The position numbers were made by a program, and so were the translations under genes. A stretch of DNA of 35,812 nucleotides, taken from the IMG/VR virus record IMGVR_UViG_3300021963_000010, positions 1 through 35,812 of that record; one strand, given 5' to 3'. The notes under the pieces are model-generated. The model did no database searches and was not told the origin of the DNA. It saw only the letters and a list, made by a program, of their open reading frames with translations. Each line of letters begins with the position of its first letter. The first letter of the stretch is position 1. This DNA comes from a virus. Below are positions 5,540-23,643 of the stretch, piece after piece.

Positions 5540-7285
5540 TTAAAGAAATGGACGGTTTACAACAATTCTAAAATCACTTGATGCAATGTCTACCGCGCCG
5601 CCTGTTAAATTAGCAAGAACTAGCTTTACCGTATTTGTTCCTGAAACATAAGCTGTAAGCGTTAAGCCTTGTAAATCTATGCTGCAAGACACTGTAGCAA
5701 TGTCGCCTAAAAGGGCTTCTCCAACAGTTACCGACACAGAAGTAGAAGCGCCATTTGCTACGGACGCAGGGTTCCAAGTGTATTTAGTTGTTTGATTCCA
5801 ACCATAATAGGATTGTGAAGACGCGGGGGCTTTAAACTCACCCAAAACATTATTGCGTAAATTATTACCCGTAAAATTTACGTTTGTAATTACGCCATCA
5901 AAACCAATACCATAATTTTGCGTACCACCAGGAAAGGCTGTTTCAAAACAAGTGTTTCCCGTAACAGTGCTGCCACTTGCTCCCGCGCCTAAAGCGATAC
6001 CAAAAGTGTCTGCCGTCCCTGTATAAGTTCCGTTGTTATAGCAAACATTTCCTTGAACAGTAGAGTATGAAGAACCTAGAAAAATGCCTGCGCCGCTTAC
6101 ATTGGAACAAGTATTTCCTACGACACTATGATACCCGCCAAATATTTCTAGCCCTTGATTAGTGAAACCATCGCTATCAAGACCCGTATAGTTTCCAAAA
6201 CAAGTATTACCGATAAACTTACAGTAAAGAGAATTTTGGTTTGTAGGTTGACAAGAAATGCCAGCGCCATATTTCCAAGCAGAAATATGATTCCCAATAA
6301 AATTTAAATAATGACCTTGAGTTAATATTCCTGCATTTGTGCAAATGTTGTTTGTTATATTGCCAAAAGTACACACCCCATCTGCGCCCGAAATCAAAAT
6401 GGATTCATTTACACCTTGTGCACTGGCTACAGTTTTTGTAAAAGTGTTATTGTCCGCAGTAAAATTAGTTGCATTATTAAAAGCTAAAGCAACAAAAGCA
6501 AATTTAATAAAATTACAATTTCTAATTACTAAATTAGAACAAGATTTAAATTGAACTAAAAAGTTAGTAGATACTGCGCTTAATTCACCGCCATCAAAAG
6601 TAATATTTTCAATGTTTATATTGGTTTTACTTTCCCCGTAAAATATTCCGTTAGTGTAGGTAGCTTTTGCTTTAATTGTGGCGTTTGAACCGTAGATATA
6701 AAGATTGCTTACACAAGTCACTTGTGAAATTAAATATGTGCCGCTAGGAAAAAATAATGTTTTTCCGGTTGAAGCATTTATAGCGTTTTGAACTGCGGCG
6801 GTGTCATCAGTTGTGCCGTCGCCAGTTGCGCCAAAATCTTTTACAGAAACAGTTTCGCGCAATTTGGCTTGTACTGTAGTTGCTGTAGCGCCAGTGCCAG
6901 AAGATATATAGCCTACAAGAGATGAGCCAGACTCTGCGGCCAAAGATGCTTCAAACGCTGTTAAAGCAGCATCAGATGCAGTTGGATCGTTTATCCCGCT
7001 AACATTATCGTAAGTGGCTATCAATACATCGGTGCTATCTTTTAGCACAAATTTATAGCTAACACCCGCAGTAAGCCAGTTTTCACCGCCATCAGGCACT
7101 CGGCCAGCCGAGTCCAATACGATAGGGTTTGTACGTGGCGTGCTGCCTGAACTAGTAGTGTAAGTAACCGCAGGTGTAGTTGTCCCCGCAGCATAACTGT
7201 ATAGCTTGCCACCAGACAGAATTACACCGTTATTGGTAAAAAATTGGGCCGCAACGCCGCCCACGGGGGAGAGAAAGACGGCCAT
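5540..7285 (-). CDS. Tailspike with pectate-lyase-type beta-helix
   Basis: A 581-residue protein. Residues 1-100 resemble phage head-binding domains (GGKLYSYAAGTTTP, then DSAGRVPDGG). Residues 147-170 (SVKDFGATGDGTTDDTAAVQ) are the classic start of the pectate-lyase-3 right-handed beta-helix. Residues about 170-500 contain repeated GNT/GNxC turns typical of helix rungs, and a short C-terminal beta domain follows. It probably binds and may degrade host surface polysaccharide. The beta-helix coding part is notably AT-rich (about 5880-6700) against the flanking genes, a sign of recombination. The ribosome site is AAGGA 8 bases before ATG 7285. Catalytic residues cannot be assigned by eye. Confidence 0.85.
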   Translation of the reverse strand: MAVFLSPVGGVAAQFFTNNGVILSGGKLYSYAAGTTTPAVTYTTSSGSTPRTNPIVLDSAGRVPDGGENWLTAGVSYKFVLKDSTDVLIATYDNVSGINDPTASDAALTAFEASLAAESGSSLVGYISSGTGATATTVQAKLRETVSVKDFGATGDGTTDDTAAVQNAINASTGKTLFFPSGTYLISQVTCVSNLYIYGSNATIKAKATYTNGIFYGESKTNINIENITFDGGELSAVSTNFLVQFKSCSNLVIRNCNFIKFAFVALAFNNATNFTADNNTFTKTVASAQGVNESILISGADGVCTFGNITNNICTNAGILTQGHYLNFIGNHISAWKYGAGISCQPTNQNSLYCKFIGNTCFGNYTGLDSDGFTNQGLEIFGGYHSVVGNTCSNVSGAGIFLGSSYSTVQGNVCYNNGTYTGTADTFGIALGAGASGSTVTGNTCFETAFPGGTQNYGIGFDGVITNVNFTGNNLRNNVLGEFKAPASSQSYYGWNQTTKYTWNPASVANGASTSVSVTVGEALLGDIATVSCSIDLQGLTLTAYVSGTNTVKLVLANLTGGAVDIASSDFRIVVNRPFL

Positions 7286-11374: not shown

Positions 11375-13542
11375 TGTGGTTGCTCCATACCTTCTTGTGG
11401 CATCTCAGCGCCAGTATCTACATCACGCCCAGGCATCTCGGTAACTAGGTCACCAGAAGTGATCATGCCATGGACGGTGCCTAAAACAATATCTTGAATC
11501 TGCTCTGGCGACATACTGGCCTGCACAGCGGAAATCCGCTGGGTTTCAGCCTGGTACGCTTTGACCGTTGCCTCAAAGTCTTTGCGGTGCATATCCTGCG
11601 CCTCAATGGACTTGCCAGCATTGATGATCATCTGGTGCATCTGCTCCATCTCTTGGCCCATTGCTTGGATTTGCTGCTCTGCGGCCTGCAACTCGGGCGG
11701 CTTGTCGCCGTCTTGCATAAGTTTGGGGTCAATGGTCTTGGCAAAACGCTTTGCCATCTCTTGGGCACCAGGCCAATCCATGTTTTTGACAAACAGGTCA
11801 CCGGCCACTTGCCATAGCTGGGGGTTACCTTGCAACAGTTGGCCCATCGCCTCAAGTGCCTCTTGGCGCTTGGTTGCGTAACCTGGGCCGGTGGTAGCGA
11901 CCACATCGTATTTGCCCACGCCAGGGTTGTAAATCTTATCAATCACGATGCCTTGCTGATCCACGATCTTCTTGACCGGCTCGGCCTGCATCGGGTCAAT
12001 CTTGACCATGCTGGTTTCGCCATCTTCGCCAATAATGCGGGCAATCCGCTGCGTATCGTAAATTTTGGGGATCAGGTCAATCAATTGCCGTGTCAGATAC
12101 CGCACACCACGGGCCAAGTTGTCGCCAAAGTGGTACGTCCCAACATCACCCTCACGCTGACGGGCCATGATAGCCCTGCCACTGCGCTCGTTAGATGTCA
12201 TGCCCAAAGAAGCGTTATATTGGCCTGTGGATGCCTTAATGTCTTCAGAAGCTCCAGCTTTAGCCTGCAAAAGCCCGCTGGAGGCCATTGGCGGCTGCGC
12301 CCGCTGGGGTAGTGGCAGCGTAGCGCCCGCGCCGTCTGTAACGTCTGGATTGACCTCCAAATACGGCCAGTTGGTCGTGTTGGCGGTCTTCCATTGGTTT
12401 TCGTAGCCCTCAAACTGGCCGCCGTAGCCAATAAATGGCGCTTTGGGGGCCAAGGCCAGCATTTCTGCCTCTTGGGACACCCAATAGTTGTACATCCGCT
12501 GGGCGTCCTTGGCGTTTCGCACCAAGCCGGACACGTACAGACGACCGTCAACCTCAAATTCATTGCCCACAATGCGGACAATTGGGATGTATTTTCCCGC
12601 CCACTCGCGTTCCTCTAAGATTTCGTAGCCGTTTATCTTGCAATACTTGATCCGTGGCCGGTCAGACTGCCGAGTTTTCTTGGGTTTGCCGTAAATGGCG
12701 CGTAATTGCTTGTCTTCGGGCGTTCCTTCAAAAGCCGTGGCGTTGCCAGGGTACAAATTGAGCGTGCCCTTGTCGTAATCGACGTAGTAGTAGTCAGCAA
12801 TGCGAATAGTGTCCTCATTGAGCCACTGCGATAGGTTTTGATCGCCCACACCGAGCGTTTGCAAGGTGGTAATAGGCGCTGAGTCGGGATACATCCGCTG
12901 GTAATCGTCTTTGGAGATGTCCTCGGTCACAAAACACCACTTGGCGTCCGCGCCGCACGGATCTTGGATGGTTGGGTCCATGTACACCGAGAAACTATTG
13001 CGAACTCGGCCAATTTTGATGTCTTGGTCAAAGGTATTGTCGTCGCAATATTCGGTCAGGATTCGGATGTAGCCTTCTCCGTAGGAGACTTGGTTTTCGC
13101 AGGCGGTGTCGTAAGCGACATCTGCGTCCGAGATGTATTCAATATGTCTAACCATGCCGTTGAAGACTTCGGCAACGTCAATGTCGGCCTTGTCGTCGGC
13201 TGGAATAACTTTGCCTGTTGGGCGGTTTTGTCGTTGGTCATTAGTTACTTGCCGTACGTGTTGCGGCAGTTTGTTGATGGTAAGGCACGGGCGGGCGTTG
13301 ATGGTCTGTCCCTGCACCGCGCCGCGGGTTGCCAGCACATCAGCAGGCCACTGCCAATGATTGTCTGGGCTGCCAGCGTAGAACTTTAGATCGTCAATCT
13401 CATCCTCGCGGGACTCAGACAGCGCCGATATTGCCATATCCAAGCGGCTGCGGGCAGTTGCCAGTACGTTGGAGTCGTCGTCCTTCTTACCGCCACCATT
13501 GGCAACATTGCCCGCCGCCACCATGCCTGTGTAATCAGCCAT
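11371..13542 (-). CDS. Portal protein (P22 gp1-like)
   Basis: A 723-residue protein, nearly the 725 residues of P22 gp1. The N-terminal segment contains SRLDMAISALSESREDEIDD, then FYAGSPDNHWQWP and RPCLTINKLPQHVRQVTNDQ, typical of this portal family. Residues around 440-470 include the NERSGRAIMARQREGD motif seen in related portals. The last 120 residues are a helical, Gln/Met-rich stretch that could form the long barrel known in P22. It would form the dodecameric ring that binds terminase, scaffold and the gp4-like adaptor. It lies two genes after large terminase, as expected, but far from its scaffold and coat partners. Confidence 0.9.
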   Translation of the reverse strand: MADYTGMVAAGNVANGGGKKDDDSNVLATARSRLDMAISALSESREDEIDDLKFYAGSPDNHWQWPADVLATRGAVQGQTINARPCLTINKLPQHVRQVTNDQRQNRPTGKVIPADDKADIDVAEVFNGMVRHIEYISDADVAYDTACENQVSYGEGYIRILTEYCDDNTFDQDIKIGRVRNSFSVYMDPTIQDPCGADAKWCFVTEDISKDDYQRMYPDSAPITTLQTLGVGDQNLSQWLNEDTIRIADYYYVDYDKGTLNLYPGNATAFEGTPEDKQLRAIYGKPKKTRQSDRPRIKYCKINGYEILEEREWAGKYIPIVRIVGNEFEVDGRLYVSGLVRNAKDAQRMYNYWVSQEAEMLALAPKAPFIGYGGQFEGYENQWKTANTTNWPYLEVNPDVTDGAGATLPLPQRAQPPMASSGLLQAKAGASEDIKASTGQYNASLGMTSNERSGRAIMARQREGDVGTYHFGDNLARGVRYLTRQLIDLIPKIYDTQRIARIIGEDGETSMVKIDPMQAEPVKKIVDQQGIVIDKIYNPGVGKYDVVATTGPGYATKRQEALEAMGQLLQGNPQLWQVAGDLFVKNMDWPGAQEMAKRFAKTIDPKLMQDGDKPPELQAAEQQIQAMGQEMEQMHQMIINAGKSIEAQDMHRKDFEATVKAYQAETQRISAVQASMSPEQIQDIVLGTVHGMITSGDLVTEMPGRDVDTGAEMPQEGMEQPQ

Positions 13543-13694: not shown

Positions 13695-15218
13695 TTAAGA
13701 CCCCATCCATGATGTGTTAATGCTGCTGCCCTGCGAATTAATCCTGCGGGCTGGTTCAGTATACTCGCGGTGAGCCACGGGAAAAGCAAACGTCACGCAC
13801 AGCGCGTCGGCGGCGTCCGGTGATGCTAACCCTCTTGCTCTCATCTCTTTTTTCCCTTCTAGGAAAATAGTGCCAGAAGAATCCGGCTTCTTGGCCGGCC
13901 CAGTTAAATCTGCCCGTAACTGCCTGTCGGTGGGAATACTAGCAGATTTTAGCCAGTTCCTCATATCATTCCACATTTCAGCGCGTTTATTGCCAAATGC
14001 AATCGGGTGCTTGGCCTTATTGCCAAAGTTAATCCCTCGCACCTTATACCGCTGCTCGGTCAGCCGGTCTAGGATGCCGTACCCCAAACCACCCTCATCA
14101 ATCACGGTCAAAGTCGGCTTATATTCCTCAATGGCCTCAATCACCCTTCCCACTATGGTCATAGTATCTTCACCCTGGTAACGCTTAATCGCCACCAGGT
14201 CACGCCCCTGCCTCACCACAATCACAGTTGCGTCGGCGCCCCCTCGAGCCGGGTCAACCCCCACAATAATGGGAGCTGTCATATCCTTGTACTTGGGCCG
14301 CTTCATAGCATCATCAACCAACGTCGGCCCAATGAACTGGTCTTCCCCAGCCGAAGGAAACTCGCCATAAACCTCAATCTTGGCCTGGCTGGAATTCTCC
14401 CCATACTCAGCAATAATCTGCTCGTACACCGCCTTGTCGGTGTCCTCCACCGTCCTGGCGTCCACCACCCGTGACTTCCAAAACGCACGTTTAGCGTTAA
14501 AGCACTCAAAGAAGTACCCGCTATTGCGGCGCGGGTTGGAGAACGCAAACCAGTACCTGTCGGGCGTGTTCTCAGTAAAAAACCCAGCGCCCACATCCCA
14601 GATCGCATCAGGAATACCGCTACTCTCATCAAAGATCAGCATCATGCCGTCCTGGTTATGCACACCAGCATAAGAATCAGGATTCTCTTCCGACCACAGT
14701 TTGCCCTCGCAGGCCCAGTACCTGGTGCCCTTCTTTAAGTCCTTCTCCACAATATCCGTCAACCATTTGGCAGGCACTAGCTTGGTGGCGCTAATCTCCC
14801 ACCAGTGCGAGTTAATCAGCATCGCTGACCACTTTGTGAGCTCTGCCCAGGTCACCGACCTCAACTGATTCTCGCTATTGGCGCTCACCACTACCGAGCC
14901 GCCAATGCGGGTGGTCAGCATCCAAAGAACCAACCAACTAACAAGCGCTGACTTGCCAATGCCTCGCCCGCTGGATACTGCTGCCCTGATAGTGTCAAAG
15001 TCAACCTTGCCCTGCTGCGCCTTAATGTGCTCAGTCACATCTCGCAGCACCTCCCGCTGCCATTTGCGAGGGCCTGTAAACCGCGCCAGCGGCGTGTTCT
15101 TCACGCCCCAAGGGAACGCATACATCACAAACCGTTCCAAGTCATCAGCAACAGCCGGTGACCATAACTCGGTCATCAGCTTCTGTTCTTCCTCGCCTCG
15201 GTAGATGGGCAGTTGCAT
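13695..15218 (-). CDS. Terminase large subunit
   Basis: A 507-residue two-domain packaging motor. The ATPase part has a Walker A-like GRGIGKS at residues 84-90 (Lys89) and a Walker B MLIFDES with Asp197 and Glu198. The coupling motif SNPRR starts at residue 227. The nuclease part is RNase H-like: Asp322 in VGVDPARGG, Asp374 in TVIDEGGLG, and Asp468/Asp471 near the C-terminus (SPDAADAL). It uses ATP to drive DNA into the prohead and cuts the concatemer. Its start shares a base with the stop of the preceding gene (TAATG). P22 uses headful packaging; the same is plausible here but cannot be read from this sequence. Confidence 0.92.
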   Translation of the reverse strand: MQLPIYRGEEEQKLMTELWSPAVADDLERFVMYAFPWGVKNTPLARFTGPRKWQREVLRDVTEHIKAQQGKVDFDTIRAAVSSGRGIGKSALVSWLVLWMLTTRIGGSVVVSANSENQLRSVTWAELTKWSAMLINSHWWEISATKLVPAKWLTDIVEKDLKKGTRYWACEGKLWSEENPDSYAGVHNQDGMMLIFDESSGIPDAIWDVGAGFFTENTPDRYWFAFSNPRRNSGYFFECFNAKRAFWKSRVVDARTVEDTDKAVYEQIIAEYGENSSQAKIEVYGEFPSAGEDQFIGPTLVDDAMKRPKYKDMTAPIIVGVDPARGGADATVIVVRQGRDLVAIKRYQGEDTMTIVGRVIEAIEEYKPTLTVIDEGGLGYGILDRLTEQRYKVRGINFGNKAKHPIAFGNKRAEMWNDMRNWLKSASIPTDRQLRADLTGPAKKPDSSGTIFLEGKKEMRARGLASPDAADALCVTFAFPVAHREYTEPARRINSQGSSINTSWMGS

Positions 15219-16597
15219 TACTTCTTACGCTTCTTCTTGATGATCTCGTTGATGCTGTCAATCTGATCTGCAATAGAAGCTGGGGCTGGGGCCGCTAATA
15301 AATCAGGCGCTGCAACTCCCATAGTCGCGGCAATGGCAGCACTCTTACGGAATGGGTCAAAGGCGGCAAAGCGGGAACGGATGTTTTCTGGCTCTCTTGT
15401 TACATATTCGGTTATATATCCATGTTTATTTGTTATAGATTCTGGATTTTTTAATAACAAAGGAATAATATTGGCAGATTCTTTGTAATTTGGAAAATCT
15501 GTCATTGCATAAGCATTTGCGCCACTTGCGGAAGGAGAACTATATTCACCAGAACCATACCATCCTTGATCAGTTGCACTTCCTCTTTTATTTTTATCAA
15601 ATGCAAGAAAATCATTTGTTGTCCCATGATAAGCATCAGTATCAAACCCCATCGCCGCAGCCCTTTGCTCTGCCGTATTGCCAGCGGGCAATCCCAACCC
15701 ACCTTGCTCAATCGGCAATGCAGCGCGTTGCTGGGCAAGGTCTAAGGCTGCTTGTTGGGGGTAGGGTGATTGATTGGCTCTAATGTATTTGCCGCTATTG
15801 CTAAACGCTTTTGTGTATGGCGTTTGCTGCAAATTTGCTTCCTGCATTGCACTTTGAACTGCTGGCCTACCTTGAGAAAAAATACGCTCTTTTTCTTGCA
15901 TAGACAAATCTTCAATCATTTTTGCTTGCCTTGCGCTTTGAATAGCATCACGTTCAGCTTTTGGGATAGATAATGCCATTTTTTCTAATGCTCCTAACTC
16001 ATTAGAAAAATCATCACCTACGTCATACACAAACTGACTCTCTTTTGGCCCTTTACTGTGGCCGGAAAATCTAAATGGCGACTCAAATTTTGCCCCAGTA
16101 ATTGGGTCTAAAACAGTTACATACGAACTTGGGCCAGCTTTACTACCACTATGCTCTACAGAAGCAGACAATCCCATTTCTTTTGCTTTAGCCGCAAAAT
16201 TTTCTGCATGACTTTGAATAAGTCTAGCTTGATCTTGTCTAGTTAACCCACTTGGTAAATTCATCAATGGATTATCACCAACACTTTTAATCCCCATCCC
16301 TACAGGCAATCCCTTGGTAAATCTAGCAGCAGGCAGTACACCAAGCGCAGTTCCAACAGGAAACCCGTACTCAGCACCCTGGCGTACTGCAGCCATGTTT
16401 GGATCAAGCACGCTTCCCGCCATCTGATCGGGCGCCGTTCCCACTACCCCGCCAAGAAATCCATACAACTGCGGGAACTGCTGACGCAAATACGATTCGC
16501 TTGGGCCTTGCAGCATCTGCGTGCCCATCAGGTTGCGCGGACCATACGCCAAGCTGTTCGCTGGGCGCGGGGCTAGTGCGTTTGTGTAGACGGGCAT
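15218..16597 (-). CDS. Polyvalent-type protein with ADP-ribosyltransferase-like C-terminal domain
   Basis: A 459-residue protein. Residues 1-110 are Ala/Gly/Pro-rich and low in structure, and residues 120-200 form a small unassigned alpha/beta region. Residues 321-415 match the ADP-ribosyltransferase domain of phage polyvalent proteins: YHGTT with His324, GSATDQGWYGSGEYSSP at 339-355, then TEYVTREPENIRSRFAAFDP. The likely triad is His324, Tyr352 and Glu397. The C-terminus is a lysine-rich tail (IIKKKRKK). Related proteins such as P1 DarB-type or T4 Alt-type enter the host with DNA. It is coupled to the large terminase by a one-base overlap. Injection and target are inference. Confidence 0.72.
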   Translation of the reverse strand: MPVYTNALAPRPANSLAYGPRNLMGTQMLQGPSESYLRQQFPQLYGFLGGVVGTAPDQMAGSVLDPNMAAVRQGAEYGFPVGTALGVLPAARFTKGLPVGMGIKSVGDNPLMNLPSGLTRQDQARLIQSHAENFAAKAKEMGLSASVEHSGSKAGPSSYVTVLDPITGAKFESPFRFSGHSKGPKESQFVYDVGDDFSNELGALEKMALSIPKAERDAIQSARQAKMIEDLSMQEKERIFSQGRPAVQSAMQEANLQQTPYTKAFSNSGKYIRANQSPYPQQAALDLAQQRAALPIEQGGLGLPAGNTAEQRAAAMGFDTDAYHGTTNDFLAFDKNKRGSATDQGWYGSGEYSSPSASGANAYAMTDFPNYKESANIIPLLLKNPESITNKHGYITEYVTREPENIRSRFAAFDPFRKSAAIAATMGVAAPDLLAAPAPASIADQIDSINEIIKKKRKK

Positions 16598-16798: not shown

Positions 16799-17317
16799 TC
16801 AGACAGGGTTATCAACAGGCCGCGGGGTGACGTCGGTCACGTTGTCCAGCGTCAGCACCCGTGCCTTGGCTGCCTCGAGCGCGTCGATCACGCTAATGCG
16901 CTCGTCCCTCACCGTCATGTCAATGCGGTCACCGTAAGTGCGCGGCTTCAGCTTGGACGCGATCCACTTGCGCGCATCCACCTGCATCCGCTTCTGCTGC
17001 ACCCAGGCAGACGCCATAGCGCCTTCTAAACCCTCTGGCATGGGTTCGTCAGACAGTTGCAGTATCTCGTCTGCTAGCTTGTCTGCGCGGTCTTGTACGG
17101 CCTTCTCGTAGGCTGCGGTTAGCTTGGGATCCTGCGCCAGCATGGCTTGAAAAACAGTCCAGTTTGGCATATTGTCTTGAGCCAGCACAGTAGACACGCT
17201 TTTGCCTGCTGATACCTGGGCAACGATCTCCAGCCAAACTGGATGCTCCGGCGGCCATTTCACCGGCCTGCCCATGATTGCACCGTTTTTTGTAGTCTTT
17301 TCAGCCAAAGTCTTCAT
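16799..17317 (-). CDS. Terminase small subunit
   Basis: A 172-residue protein by this start. It opens with a basic tail and an HTH-like DNA-binding region (GRPVKWPPEHPVWLEIVAQV, then VLAQDNMPNWTVFQAMLAQD). The middle ends in ARKWIASKLKPRTYGDR, a motif I associate with Sf6/P22-type small terminases. The start is chosen at ATG 17317 because AGGGG lies 5-6 bases upstream; the adjacent ATG at 17320 is too close and the frame continues to 17401 without a ribosome site. It would recognise the packaging site and hand DNA to the large subunit. Unusually, the ADP-ribosyltransferase-like gene separates it from the large subunit. Confidence 0.78.
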   Translation of the reverse strand: MKTLAEKTTKNGAIMGRPVKWPPEHPVWLEIVAQVSAGKSVSTVLAQDNMPNWTVFQAMLAQDPKLTAAYEKAVQDRADKLADEILQLSDEPMPEGLEGAMASAWVQQKRMQVDARKWIASKLKPRTYGDRIDMTVRDERISVIDALEAAKARVLTLDNVTDVTPRPVDNPV

Positions 17318-17402
17318 CATTACCCCTGCGCGTGTGCGTAATTTAACTAAATGTATGCAAAAAGCGCATAACGTTGCCCATTTTGCGCAACCCATTGCCA
17401 AT

Positions 17403-17450: not shown

Positions 17451-18092
17451 TCACTTTACAAATGCCTTTGTGTCAAACAGCTTTGGCATTTTGCTTGGTG
17501 TCGTCATATCCAGGTCGTTGACCATATCCTCAAACCCGCTAGGCCCACCGACCTTAACCAGTTTGCTGTCAGGCCATTGTCGCTTGATCTCGCTGATTTT
17601 GCCATCTGCCTGGCGTGCCATGATTATCGCAATCTCTGCCGCCGTCCAGACTTCCCTGTCCGTTGTCCCAGGCCACTGCTGGCAGTAAAGCCGTTTAGAG
17701 GCCTCATCTGGCACGATAACGAAAACAGTACCATCTGCCTGCTGGTGCTCAATCTGTCGCAGATTAGGCAGTTTTGATACGTTGTTGGCATTAGCCCAAG
17801 CCTCCATCGCGTCATAGGCTTTGCACATACCCTTGACCGCCTTGTCCAGCTTCTGGTCGTTGCGTTCTTCTTGTGCCTGCCAAACCCGCTCCAGTTGCAG
17901 CCACACCTTTTCCCGCAGCTCGGTATCCACCAACCAAACCAGCCTATCAATACCCCACTTTGCGTCATGGGTATTCTTACGGTTTGCCAGCTCCACCATG
18001 ACAGCGTTTTTAAACACCTCAAACTTGTCCGCTGGATATGCTGGCATGGTCGGATGGTTAATCGCCAAAGATTTAAGTTTCTTAGTCACCAC
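17451..18092 (-). CDS. Hypothetical protein downstream of the repeat array
   Basis: A 213-residue, largely helical protein. It has tryptophans in regular helical positions (KWGIDRLVWLVDTELREKVW, VWQAQEERND, MEAWANANN) and a C-terminal lysine-rich region ending in DTKAFVK. It is not recognised as a known enzyme. It lies between the iteron-like array and the small terminase. The array sits directly upstream of its start, so it could be a protein that binds those repeats or one regulated by them. Both are speculation from position. Confidence 0.6.
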   Translation of the reverse strand: MVTKKLKSLAINHPTMPAYPADKFEVFKNAVMVELANRKNTHDAKWGIDRLVWLVDTELREKVWLQLERVWQAQEERNDQKLDKAVKGMCKAYDAMEAWANANNVSKLPNLRQIEHQQADGTVFVIVPDEASKRLYCQQWPGTTDREVWTAAEIAIIMARQADGKISEIKRQWPDSKLVKVGGPSGFEDMVNDLDMTTPSKMPKLFDTKAFVK

Positions 18093-18125
18093 TTGGTTCT
18101 CCGATTCTGGGCATTAGGCGGAGGT

Positions 18126-18168
18126 ACAAATGGGGAGCGTATCTAAAGATATACGCTCTCCCATTTGT
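18126..18168. repeat. Long imperfect palindrome at edge of iteron array
   Basis: A 17-base arm (18126-18142) pairs with an 18-base arm (18151-18168) with a single-base bulge and an 8-base loop. The outer arms contain the repeat unit in inverted orientation, and the inner arms read GAGCGTAT/ATACGCTC. There is no adjacent T run on either strand, so it is not an ordinary intrinsic terminator. Confidence 0.7.
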
Positions 18169-18304
18169 CCCACTCCCGCCAAATCTGTGCCTTTTCCATA
18201 TTTCTCCCATTTGTCCGCCCATTTGTCCTCCATTTGTCCCATTTGTCCCAAACCCATATTTCCCCCATTTGCGTCAATTGCTCCCATTTGTACCCCATTT
18301 GTCC
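18126..18304. repeat. Iteron-like array of CCCATTTGTCC repeats
   Basis: The 11-mer CCCATTTGTCC recurs at 18160, 18206, 18218, 18238 and 18294. Close variants occur at 18229 (TCC start), 18264 (TTTGCGTC) and 18283 (TTTGTACC). A reverse-strand copy is at 18126-18135. GCCAAATCTGT occurs twice (18178-18188 and 18308-18318), flanking the denser part. The region lies just after the primase-helicase gene and before a 213-residue gene. Tandem short repeats beside a primase-helicase resemble iterons of replication origins; a transcription operator is an alternative. Confidence 0.7.
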
Positions 18305-18333
18305 GTAGCCAAATCTGTAAGTTATAAAGCACC

Positions 18334-20322
18334 CTAAAAGTCGCTATCATTTTGGTCACCATCACTATAAATCGCCCACACAAAAGGATCGAAAACCTCT
18401 ACCTTTTTGGCGTTCTGAAGGCTCTGCACGCACCTTGTAAACCGCTTCTTGACGCCTGTTTTGTCGGTCTGGGCCGCTTCAAACGCTTGCTGCCACTGCT
18501 CAACATGAACCGATTTATTGCGTTTTCCGTCAATTAGCCGCATATCCCCGTGATCTGCAATTGCCTTGTGAAGTGCGTCCAGAGCGATCTTTTGTGTACC
18601 GCCAGCACCTGATCTTGATGGCGGTACAGGCTTTGGTTTGTGCTGCTCGTCGATCATTTCCTGGCATTCCCTGACCGCTAAAGAGAAGTTTTCCTCCAGC
18701 CCGAGGGCGTTGTCCTGACCTTGATTGATGTTGACCTGGACCATCTCAAAGCCAAATTTAAGGTTGTCCTGGCCGTCCTTGCTCTTACTCAGGGTGATGA
18801 TTCCGGTCCCTGCCACGCCTTCTTTGCGCTCGGTTTGCTCCAGCTTTACGATCTCAAGTTGACTGTCCAAACTGCCCAGGAGCGAGCTATGGCCCCGCAG
18901 ACCTTTACTTTGGTCTTTGCCTGAGTGATGCAAAACCATCAAAGCGCAGTTAAGTTTTCGCTGAATCCGTCCACAGTTATGGATGAATGCGCCCATGTCA
19001 GCGGCATCATTCTCTTGACCCCCGCCAAATGCCCTGGCTAATGTGTCTATCTGCACCAGGCGCAGCTCTATGCCCGTGCGCTCTATAAGTTCGTTTATGG
19101 ACTCCATCAGTAGGTTGAAGTCATCTGGGCTGCTGCGCAGGTTAAGCTGGTAGCGGATAACGTATATTTCTGCACCAGGCTTAGTCTGGTGGTTGATCTT
19201 GCAAGCGCGGATACGGGCGCCAATGCCGCCCATACCCTCCCCGCAGATGTACAGGACGGCGCCAGGGTTGCATATTTCGTTGCCCATCCACGGCCTGCCG
19301 GTGGCTATTGCCTCGGCCATATCGAGCGCGTGAAATGACTTGTATGAGCCAGGTGGTCCAAACAATGCAGAGAAACCCTTGACAGGTAACACGTTCTGGA
19401 TAATCCATTCAACCTTCTCATCCTTGATGGTGTCCCACGCCTCAATGTTGAGCAGTTGCGGAGTCGGGTTAAAGGCTTCTGATGGCACTGGTTCGGGTTC
19501 GGCCACCTTGGGCTGCTGCGTGATTACTGGGGCTTGCCTTGCCAGTTCCGCGAGTTCCTTGCGCGTTCCTTTGGCGTGATACACCCACTCGTAGGCATCA
19601 TCACCCTCTACCATCAATCCAAGGTCGAGATATCTGATTGACTTGACCACGGGTAACAGATGAGCAATTGCGCGTTTGGCGTAAGATATCCCTGGCTCGT
19701 CATTGTCAGGGATTACCACGACATTTGCGCCTGCGAAGTATTGGGTTATCTCAGTAGGCCAACTGCCTGCACCAGTGTGTGAAGTGGTGGCAATGGCGCC
19801 GATACTTGTTAATGCGTCCGCGGCCTTCTCGCCTTCCACCAGATAGATGGCGCGGCCTGATTGCTTTGCGTCGATAAGCTCAGGCAAATTGAGGGGAACA
19901 ATTCTGGTGTCCTTTAACCCCGCTATCCGCTTGCCTTGCGCGTCAACTCTATGGATAGAGTACGTCTTACCCTTTGCGTCATTAGTCTTGTACCGGCGCT
20001 TGGTAAAGAGTTCCGTGCCATCCTCTGCGCGGTACACCCATTCCTTTTCCAGTACCTTGTCCTGGTGCTGGGTAAAACTGATCTCCTCGCGCTTGGGCGT
20101 TGACTGCAATAGGTTGCGTTCCCTTACCGCGTCAAACACCTCCCGCTGATCGCATCCAGCATGGCAGTGGAATAAAACCTTGCCGTCACTTTCCGTGATT
20201 GAGAGGCTGGGGTTCCTGTCCCCGTTGCCGCTGCCGTGACCAGGTACAGGGCATGAAGCAACCCACTGCCCATTTACCATCTTGGCGTTACCCAGCGCCT
20301 TGGCTATTGTTTCTGTGTCCAT
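18334..20322 (-). CDS. Primase-helicase with zinc finger, TOPRIM and RecA-like domains
   Basis: A 662-residue, three-part replication protein. Residues 24-57 form a zinc-binding motif (Cys24, His29, Cys53, Cys57). Residues 160-210 form a TOPRIM domain, with VEGEKAAD around Glu163/Glu165 and the DND at 206-208. Residues 315-470 form a RecA-like or RepA-like ATPase, with Walker A GPPGSYKS at 322-329 and Walker B around VQIDTLAR (Asp426). It ends in a helical region. It would prime lagging strands and unwind DNA at the fork. Position beside the repeat array suggests initiation there. The upstream terminator insulates it from the rest of the replication block. Confidence 0.88.
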   Translation of the reverse strand: MDTETIAKALGNAKMVNGQWVASCPVPGHGSGNGDRNPSLSITESDGKVLFHCHAGCDQREVFDAVRERNLLQSTPKREEISFTQHQDKVLEKEWVYRAEDGTELFTKRRYKTNDAKGKTYSIHRVDAQGKRIAGLKDTRIVPLNLPELIDAKQSGRAIYLVEGEKAADALTSIGAIATTSHTGAGSWPTEITQYFAGANVVVIPDNDEPGISYAKRAIAHLLPVVKSIRYLDLGLMVEGDDAYEWVYHAKGTRKELAELARQAPVITQQPKVAEPEPVPSEAFNPTPQLLNIEAWDTIKDEKVEWIIQNVLPVKGFSALFGPPGSYKSFHALDMAEAIATGRPWMGNEICNPGAVLYICGEGMGGIGARIRACKINHQTKPGAEIYVIRYQLNLRSSPDDFNLLMESINELIERTGIELRLVQIDTLARAFGGGQENDAADMGAFIHNCGRIQRKLNCALMVLHHSGKDQSKGLRGHSSLLGSLDSQLEIVKLEQTERKEGVAGTGIITLSKSKDGQDNLKFGFEMVQVNINQGQDNALGLEENFSLAVRECQEMIDEQHKPKPVPPSRSGAGGTQKIALDALHKAIADHGDMRLIDGKRNKSVHVEQWQQAFEAAQTDKTGVKKRFTRCVQSLQNAKKVEVFDPFVWAIYSDGDQNDSDF

Positions 20323-20394: not shown

Positions 20395-20985
20395 TTAAAA
20401 AATCTCGTCATCCTCAATGATCGGTACTGGCTTTGGCGCCTGCTTACGCACCGGCTGCTCAACGGGTAAATGAACAATTGCGCCTGGCTCTGCCTCAAAC
20501 TCCTGTGTATCGGCATCCAGCCCCGCGGGACGGGCAACCCAACCCTTTAATACGAAGATAGGAATGCGAGTCGTACCCTTGCCGATTTTCTCTGCCTTAG
20601 AGTGGCCGTACTCCAGCACTGGCAGCTTGCCAGGGTTAGCGGCACGCTCGGCAGCGCAGGCCTTATACATCTGCTCCAGACCCATGTTCGGGCCTACGCC
20701 GTTGGATGACCACTCAGCAGCACCGATCTCCTTGTTGTACAGGACAACCTGGAATCCACGTTTGTGCTCGGGTGACGGCTGCGGCCCTTTCTTACCAACA
20801 GATTCGTCTTGCACCCAATCGCGTACACCGACACCCAGCAACAGCCAGCCTGTCTTGATGTTGTCGATGTCGAACACCACTTTCTTTAGCGTGATTTCCT
20901 CGTTGTTGTTGTTTGTCCAGGCGTTTGCTTGGGGCGAAAAGCGGATGTAGTTACCAGAGCCGCTAGATGATGATAGATTTAGCAT
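20395..20985 (-). CDS. Probable single-stranded DNA-binding protein
   Basis: A 196-residue protein. The first 100 residues are beta-rich with conserved aromatics (TGWLLLGVGVRDW, FQVVLYNKEIG, EWSSNG). The C-terminus is a disordered, proline-rich linker ending in the acidic IIEDDEIF. An acidic tip with a terminal hydrophobic residue is the hallmark of SSB proteins, where it recruits partner proteins. The N-terminal region (NYIRFSPQANAWTNNNNE) is not a canonical OB-fold by eye. It lies in the replication block beside a nuclease and a primase-helicase. The call is inference from the acidic tail and context. Confidence 0.65.
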   Translation of the reverse strand: MLNLSSSSGSGNYIRFSPQANAWTNNNNEEITLKKVVFDIDNIKTGWLLLGVGVRDWVQDESVGKKGPQPSPEHKRGFQVVLYNKEIGAAEWSSNGVGPNMGLEQMYKACAAERAANPGKLPVLEYGHSKAEKIGKGTTRIPIFVLKGWVARPAGLDADTQEFEAEPGAIVHLPVEQPVRKQAPKPVPIIEDDEIF

Positions 20986-21005: not shown

Positions 21006-22097
21006 TTAGAGTTGAAGTAGGGTTGTGCTTTCGCCTAACCCACGGGATTTGGATAGTGTTAAACCACTGCTTACTTTCTTGGTCACACTATCCAAAACTT
21101 GTTTCCTGTCCTTGCCCAGAATCTTGTCTGCGGCAGCAGGCGTAATGATTGATGTCTCGTATATTTGTTCCTCTGGAACACCCATCTCTAGCAGTACCTT
21201 CAGCGCTTTAATGTCATCTGTCCACTGCCTAGTAGGACGTTTAGGCGCCATCTGCCAGCCGCGCAGTACACCGCCAGCCTCCAGCGTCTTGGTGGCCTGC
21301 TTGCGTAGCGCAGCAATGAAGTCCTCCACCAGTTCAGCCTTGTCCAGTAAGTCAGATACCTGGTCGGGCGTCAGGGTTGCAATGTCAGCAGTCACGGGGA
21401 CCGCAGCCAGCGCCTTGGTCTGCGCTGGGCAGATCATCTTAGCGGGGCAGTATTGGCAAGCATCCTTAGATGGTGTGGGTTCTGACCGGCCATCCTTGGC
21501 TGCTGTTACTGCCGGTATCAATACGTCTGCCTTCCACTGTAGCAACTCGTCACCCGTCATCTCGTGATGGCGGTTCTCGCCCGTCTGGGGCTGGACAATG
21601 GTAAGGCCCACCTTGTCAAATACCTTGACCAGCTTTTGCATTACGCCAAGCGCGTAAATCTTCATCTGGGCTGAGTCAGCGTCCACCCAGCCCCGTCCTG
21701 TTTTAAGGTCAGCAATCACAAGCACTGACTTTTCTAGGTTGTACGCAACAACGTCCGCAGTGCCGCCGACCTTGGCCAACGAGTCCTCGTAAGCTACGCC
21801 ATACTGCTCAACCTTAACCGTGCCTAGTTCGCTCTCTAGCCCAGCCACCATGCGTATGTGCGCCAACGCGAATTCAGCGTTCTCTCGCGTCATTGTGATG
21901 CCTTCAATGACCTTACCAACATAGTCCATTGGGTCTTGATCTAGCTGCCAGCAAGTCTCGGCCAGGGCATGGATGGCAGTGCCTATCTGCGCGGCCTCAC
22001 CACTTGGCTCGTAGGGTACTGTTTCAGATAAGCGTGCTGATGCGGGGCAAGCAATCCAGCGTGCGGCTGCTGATGGGCGTAGGGATAACTGTTTCAT
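21006..22097 (-). CDS. PD-(D/E)XK nuclease, DUF2800/Cas4-like
   Basis: A 363-residue protein. The opening LRPSAAARWIACPASARLSE with Cys17 is typical of DUF2800/RecB-Cas4-like phage nucleases. The GGTADVV segment (Asp115) and VIADLKTG (Asp130, Lys132) form the PD-(D/E)XK active site. The cluster CQYCPAKMICPA (Cys214, Cys217, Cys223), together with Cys17, would bind an iron-sulfur cluster as in Cas4/AddB. Such enzymes act on DNA ends and support recombination or replication. It follows a 65-residue protein with an ATGA overlap and precedes the ssDNA-binding-like gene. No SSAP gene is evident. Confidence 0.82.
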   Translation of the reverse strand: MKQLSLRPSAAARWIACPASARLSETVPYEPSGEAAQIGTAIHALAETCWQLDQDPMDYVGKVIEGITMTRENAEFALAHIRMVAGLESELGTVKVEQYGVAYEDSLAKVGGTADVVAYNLEKSVLVIADLKTGRGWVDADSAQMKIYALGVMQKLVKVFDKVGLTIVQPQTGENRHHEMTGDELLQWKADVLIPAVTAAKDGRSEPTPSKDACQYCPAKMICPAQTKALAAVPVTADIATLTPDQVSDLLDKAELVEDFIAALRKQATKTLEAGGVLRGWQMAPKRPTRQWTDDIKALKVLLEMGVPEEQIYETSIITPAAADKILGKDRKQVLDSVTKKVSSGLTLSKSRGLGESTTLLQL

Positions 22098-23439: not shown

Positions 23440-23643
23440 ATGAATGCACATCAAGTAGGGCGAATTGATAAATTTAAGGTAACCCGTGATGCGGTTAAGC
23501 ACACAGAAAATTGTCTAGAGTCATGCCGTGGGTGGGATGTTGAAAGTCTTGGCTACAACATTGAATGCAATTTCCCCGAAATTGATTCGGACAAATGCGA
23601 ACGCATAGCCGCTGCTGTGATGCGTTCACGCGGATTGCTTTAA
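23440..23643 (+). CDS. Small early protein
   Basis: A 67-residue protein, mixed alpha/beta, with a Cys-containing segment (NCLESCRGWDVESLGYNIEC) and a helical end (CERIAAAVMRSRGLL). The ribosome site (AGGAG then TAAGCA) repeats that of the first gene nearly base for base, suggesting duplication of a leader. No family is recognised. It is probably translated efficiently in early infection. Confidence 0.6.
   Translation: MNAHQVGRIDKFKVTRDAVKHTENCLESCRGWDVESLGYNIECNFPEIDSDKCERIAAAVMRSRGLL

Follow-up and report, generated by a model that had tools for sequence, protein, structure and literature searches.

The non-coding gap directly 3′ of the primase-helicase gene in a freshwater phage contig is, very probably, an iteron-type replication origin whose initiator is the 662-residue product of that gene. 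The contig, IMG/VR record IMGVR_UViG_3300021963_000010, was analysed over 35,812 nucleotides (the window). A previous sequence-only reading of the window had proposed that the iteron-like repeats in this gap may be a phage origin with its own initiator. Relatives keep repeats in the same gap, which supports binding sites for a protein of the phage itself and, most likely, an origin. That reading had named no initiator; covariation of protein and repeat sequences now singles out the winged helix at the C-terminus of the primase-helicase.

P22-like portal, coat and tail proteins were identified in the window with Pfam. All genes of the replication region are read on the minus strand, in the order DUF2800/PD-(D/E)XK nuclease, 196-residue unknown protein, primase-helicase, gap, 213-residue unknown protein and small terminase (TerS). 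The gap, correctly described before as non-coding and lying between the primase-helicase and the 213-residue protein, has a G+C content of 47% overall. A 459-residue protein encoded between the terminase genes (15218–16597, minus strand) gave an ART-PolyVal ADP-ribosyltransferase match (E 5.6e-5, sub-threshold for Pfam). Features of the region are as follows.

21006–22097, minus strand: DUF2800/PD-(D/E)XK nuclease (gene order)
20395–20985, minus strand: 196-residue unknown protein (gene order)
18334–20322, minus strand: primase-helicase, 662 residues, putative initiator (AAA_25, PHROG and RSF1010 RepA matches)
18373–18600, minus strand: predicted C-terminal winged helix, residues about 575–650, putative iteron reader (AF2, VIA-align, covariation)
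18412–18456, minus strand: putative recognition helix, residues 623–637 (Mantel r 0.82 with iteron distance)
18093–18333: non-coding gap, 241 bp, between the primase-helicase and 213-residue protein genes
18308–18318, minus strand: flanking box ACAGATTTGGC, start of array; relatives with long arrays have similar ACAGATTTGG or CATAGATTTGGC boxes
18294–18304, minus strand: iteron GGACAAATGGG, exact
18283–18293, minus strand: iteron variant GTACAAATGGG
18263–18273, minus strand: degenerate iteron with GCAAATGGG
18238–18248, minus strand: iteron GGACAAATGGG, exact
18229–18239, minus strand: iteron variant GGACAAATGGA
18218–18228, minus strand: iteron GGACAAATGGG, exact
18206–18216, minus strand: iteron GGACAAATGGG, exact
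18178–18188, minus strand: second ACAGATTTGGC box, 5′ of the hairpin
18160–18170, minus strand: iteron GGACAAATGGG, exact, hairpin outer arm
18124–18170, minus strand: hairpin, inverted iteron pair with inner stem GAGCGTAT/ATACGCTC and apex ATCTTTAG (fold z −9.4)
18124–18134, plus strand: inverted iteron copy, opposite hairpin outer arm
18109–18115, minus strand: AATGCCC motif, 3′ of the hairpin, shared by close relatives
17451–18092, minus strand: 213-residue protein next to the array (no useful family match)
16799–17401, minus strand: small terminase, ~0.7 kb downstream of the array

The repeat unit is given as GGACAAATGGG, in gene sense, because the genes are on the minus strand. Five exact copies of CCCATTTGTCC were found in the whole window, every one of them in the gap (at 18160, 18206, 18218, 18238 and 18294), in agreement with the earlier count. 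The variants noted at that time include one-mismatch direct copies at 18229 and 18283. In total, the gap contains seven same-strand copies of ACAAATGG and one inverted copy. The array lies within the gap, with its start corrected from 18126 to 18124, and extends to about 18318. Start-to-start spacings in its core are 12, 11 and 9 bases, as had been read (9–12 bases), and a spacing of 11 recurs at 18283/18294. The sequence GCCAAATCTGT occurs at the two places previously noticed, 18178–18188 and 18308–18318. An iteron origin is recognized by several short direct repeats, spaced at close to one helical turn, in non-coding DNA; here there are seven direct copies, with core spacings of 9–12 bp. Elsewhere in the window, CCCATTTGTCC with at most one mismatch is found only at 12576–12586 and 23589–23599; these sites are isolated and therefore probably due to chance.

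The top 9-mer of the gap is present in seven copies, compared with at most three copies of any 9-mer in other 241-bp stretches that do not overlap the array. Seven copies were reached by 0/2000 mononucleotide shuffles and by 3/2000 first-order Markov sequences; these control sets replaced dinucleotide shuffles (1/1000 at the observed value, 3/4 word lengths). A scan of the gap detected no σ70-like promoter or intrinsic terminator, comparison with known RNA families gave nothing near gathering scores, and no direct DNA match to the gap was found in annotated phages. GC skew, which had been suggested as a check on the origin, does not change course at the array and gave no origin signal.

With the primase-helicase as query, three scans of IMG/VR yielded about 150 locus identifiers, many of them for the same contigs fetched twice. 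The first set of relatives comprised 82 sequences (81 loci and the window) with 58 distinct gaps; the second comprised 42 distinct gaps and partially overlapped with the first. An array was present at the same place in every readable gap of relatives, and the hairpin was recognizable in nearly all. Comparison with related phages, the other check that had been suggested, bore out the location of the repeats and not their sequence, which varies by phage. The repeat is ACAAATGG in the window, GCCAAATGG in L022–L026, AAAAATGG in L018, ACGGAATGG or ACGAAATGG in L020 and L027–L032, TCAACGAATG in L051, TAGCCGACT in L069, TAGTCAACT in L075 and TGCATACA in L070, and further types exist. Since the direct copies and the hairpin arms of a given phage have identical or almost identical repeat versions, the repeats evolve in concert within a phage. 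Mixed arrays were found in a few relatives, for example L064 and L074–L091. The L064 gap contains mostly AACAAATGG repeats, yet the C-terminus of its protein is almost that of CCTACAAATGG-repeat phages; this locus is possibly an intermediate of iteron change. In a clade of 58% identity, the ACAAATGG core is common to two different C-terminal types, which counts against the proposed reader. A search of prophage and host contigs revealed no close relative and two weak matches, L092 (Mesorhizobium) and L093 (Methylotenera MAG), the latter of which reads like another primase type and was dropped.

The long palindrome with an inverted repeat copy, noticed in the sequence-only reading, is present, with the correction that the inverted copy, CCCATTTGTAC, carries one mismatch. 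As single-stranded DNA, the stretch with the palindrome (18124–18170) folds with −22.7 kcal/mol against a shuffle mean of −6.3 (z −9.4). An apex of the CTT[A/T]A type was found by one search in 50 of the 58 distinct gaps, and the eight missed gaps have CTTAG. The inner stems vary among phages with paired changes on both sides, while the apex is conserved. One locus of the second set, L123, is without such a hairpin.

The primase-helicase matches Pfam AAA_25 (E 1e-36), is without DUF927 or D5/Primase_Cterm, and has PHROG primase/helicase matches. Its primase half is of the Toprim type, and its helicase half gave a profile match to RSF1010 RepA (PDB 1g8y, E 1.7e-5). The full-length AF2 model was too poor outside the C-terminal domain. 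For residues 575–650, two AF2 runs gave an H-bb-H-H-bb secondary structure with moderate confidence (pLDDT 66). A Foldseek search with this domain returned no significant match (best E 0.12); the best rows of VIA-align were mostly winged helices (ORC1/Cdc6, MCM, CRP), with ORC1/Cdc6 first at Z about 9. The domain is predicted to be a winged helix, and a Toprim-type primase, a helicase and this predicted winged helix make up one 662-residue chain.

To relate protein and repeat type, iteron distance, calculated from the repeated 6-mers of the gap, was compared with protein distance in sliding segments by the Mantel procedure, mainly in 25 non-redundant close relatives. The primase-helicase followed iteron distance in residues 575–650 (r 0.64–0.86, Mantel p 0.0005, n = 25), these values being distance correlations on related sequences and the Mantel p leaving shared ancestry in. 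By segment, r was 0.76 for residues 575–591, 0.64 for 592–606, 0.86 for 607–622, 0.82 for 623–637 and 0.79 for 638–650. The remainder of the protein, with correlations near zero, is the internal control: 0.08 for residues 1–300 and 0.09 for both 301–540 and 541–560 (n = 25), with 40-residue windows inside 1–540 ranging from −0.05 to 0.24. The 196-residue protein (0.04) and DUF2800 (0.24) did not approach the values of the domain. In the pair L047 and L017, residues 1–540 are 95% identical, the winged helix is 55% different, and the iterons differ. In a second clade (n = 38) the pattern was weaker, with r 0.56–0.67 for the C-terminus and at most 0.20 for the rest. Thus, the winged helix of the primase-helicase is the sole protein segment that strongly follows repeat type, and by this covariation the array is matched in specificity to a cognate initiator candidate encoded in cis. 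The 213-residue protein, put forward earlier as a candidate partner of the repeats, was rejected as initiator: it gave r −0.06 to 0.22 with iteron type, its homologue in the second clade gave at most 0.11, and it has no family match of note.

The same pattern is seen in cultured Roseobacter phages, in what sequence comparison presents as a natural swap. Immediately behind the helicase gene, the repeats are TGTATAAA in CRP-821 and CRP-831 and ACTACAAA in CRP-823 and CRP-811; the inner hairpin AACCCTTTAGGGTT is common to all four. In residues 1–240, CRP-823 is nearly identical to CRP-821. Over the final 110 or so residues the pairs are CRP-823 with CRP-811 and CRP-821 with CRP-831, and the repeats group likewise. 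No origin is among the annotated features of the cultured-phage stretches. A term search of the roseophage paper showed the word “repeat” to be unused and gave no replication-origin passage; helicase variation among CRP phages (L167, L171–L173) is described there. Mosaic N- and C-terminal ends of the helicase in CRP phages could contribute to tree conflicts.

Covariation of this kind would mean recognition, an outcome that fits regulation as well as replication. The winged helix might bind the repeats as operators and switch the downstream 213-residue protein, terminase and structural genes, or shut its own operon, with no origin function. The array does lie between the replication genes and the terminase and structural genes, and covariation speaks for DNA recognition only. 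We consider such a role unlikely: the gap scan found no σ70-like promoter, long arrays and a conserved-apex hairpin with compensatory stem changes suit initiation better, as does a helicase-primase as the reader, and known analogues with the same layout are origins. It is barely credible that the small terminase reads the repeats as a pac site for packaging or as a cleavage site. The TerS gene is close (~0.7 kb downstream) and TerS distance is weakly correlated with iteron distance (r 0.32, n = 9), but at the same nine loci the winged helix reached 0.92; TerL gave −0.07, and the intervening 213-residue gene shows no correlation.

Joint transfer on a recombination cassette could also account for the covariation: the final part of the gene would travel with the array, and the protein need not read the repeats. 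Because the codons of the domain adjoin the array, linked exchange could give part of the signal, and synonymous distance in the domain correlates with iteron type too (0.43). As the whole explanation, linkage is very improbable. In close relatives correlation is weak or absent for the tail that links the domain to the array (residues 651–662, r 0.25), for the 3′ flank on the other side (0.20) and for the N-terminus of the 213-residue protein (0.08); the variation falls in a predicted DNA-binding fold; and two metagenomic clades and the cultured roseophages concur. In the second clade this control is uninformative, because the tail correlates there as well (0.59).

With the gap taken as an origin, firing would begin with physical binding of the phased iterons by the winged helices. 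The RepA-like ring helicase would assemble at the inverted iteron pair and open the DNA, and the hairpin, probably a melting or priming site, would melt or extrude. The Toprim half would make the first primer; the conserved apex may be the place, by analogy with RSF1010 RepB′, which primes at stem-loops. A host polymerase would extend the primer. Takeover by a host polymerase is proposed because the Pfam scan, which covered 20 window proteins (a subset of ORFs), revealed no DNA polymerase. Each phage appears to use a private replication address, since the repeats change in step with the C-terminal domain.

There are known cases of an initiator whose C-terminus recognizes an origin situated immediately behind the initiator gene itself. 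In SaPI Rep, as in SCCmec Cch2, the C-terminus recognizes iterons that follow the gene immediately (PMC7581432). The window phage shares with them a putative initiator helicase with iterons directly 3′ of its gene and, judging by position in relatives and covariation, reading by the C-terminus. Those helicases are of the DUF927 or D5/Primase_Cterm type, whereas here the helicase is RepA-like (AAA_25) and joined to a Toprim half; the protein is not homologous to SaPI-type Rep helicases (Pfam AAA_25 only), and the hairpin closed by inverted iterons is a feature of the window phage. P4 alpha, as summarized in PMC4234260, has a Toprim-type primase, a helicase and an origin-repeat-binding winged helix in one polypeptide. 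The window protein likewise combines a Toprim-type primase, a helicase and a predicted winged helix in one chain. Its helicase resembles RSF1010 RepA; a difference is the array immediately 3′ of the gene, accompanied by a hairpin with a conserved apex. In RSF1010, RepA, RepB′ and RepC are three separate polypeptides, and the origin has iterons and stem-loops for priming (PMC4234260); the window protein has a RepA-family hexameric helicase (1g8y, E 1.7e-5) within one 662-residue chain instead of a separate RepB′ primase and RepC iteron binder. ORF904 of pRN1 ends in a winged helix, and a stem-loop origin follows its gene immediately (PMC4234260). It differs in having an archaeo-eukaryotic primase and SF3 helicase, without iterons. 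In geminiviruses and CRESS viruses the apex of the stem-loop is conserved. Their virus-specific iterons are read by the cognate Rep and often differ between close relatives. The likeness is one of anatomy only: these are rolling-circle ssDNA viruses, and no nicking-endonuclease domain was seen in the window phage.

A literature search, with most subscription journals outside its scope, found no such helicase type in this role, no conserved-apex inverted-iteron hairpin and no exchange of a C-terminus-plus-iteron module. It is quite possible, if somewhat short of probable, that the window represents a widespread, undescribed class of phage origins, with a one-chain Toprim-RepA-winged-helix initiator and an iteron/hairpin origin just 3′ of its gene. 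The C-terminal domain and iterons would form an exchangeable, fast-diversifying specificity module, perhaps barring co-infecting relatives or satellites from each other's initiator, and the apex would be the priming site. For a group of uncultured freshwater phages, and for cultured roseophages without an annotated origin, the analysis provides an origin and an initiator that can be tested by experiment. It also provides a natural series of matched protein/DNA specificity pairs; therefore, both the rules of winged-helix recognition and the causes of origin-specificity diversification (incompatibility, phage interference, parasite escape) can be tested by domain/iteron swaps. Repeats and a CTT[A/T]A-type-apex hairpin directly 3′ of Toprim-RepA genes offer a route to finding origins.

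Comparable layouts were found in Rhizobium phage RHph_Y3_1 (CGTTCCCA) and Idiomarinaceae phage 1N2-2 (AATGTACC). By repeat count in distant isolates, arrays are clear in these two and in CRP-811, 821, 823 and 831, and weaker in CGphi29 and BcepGomr. An array directly downstream was not seen in MW202711, Vibrio 1.210.O, GB2A, Mae-JY30, Hyperion, M8CR30-2 and Rizwana, and the layout is therefore not universal. In MW202711 (L165, 2351–2700), five copies of CACGTTCA lie inside a repA-like gene, with 0 downstream. Microbacterium phage Hyperion (L176, 4501–4900) has five copies of GTGTGACA within the 3′ part of its primase gene, and its origin is possibly inside the gene rather than behind it. In Salinibacter phage M8CR30-2 (L177, about 6101–6450), CTGTGTTA repeats are located ~400–700 bp downstream of the primase gene.
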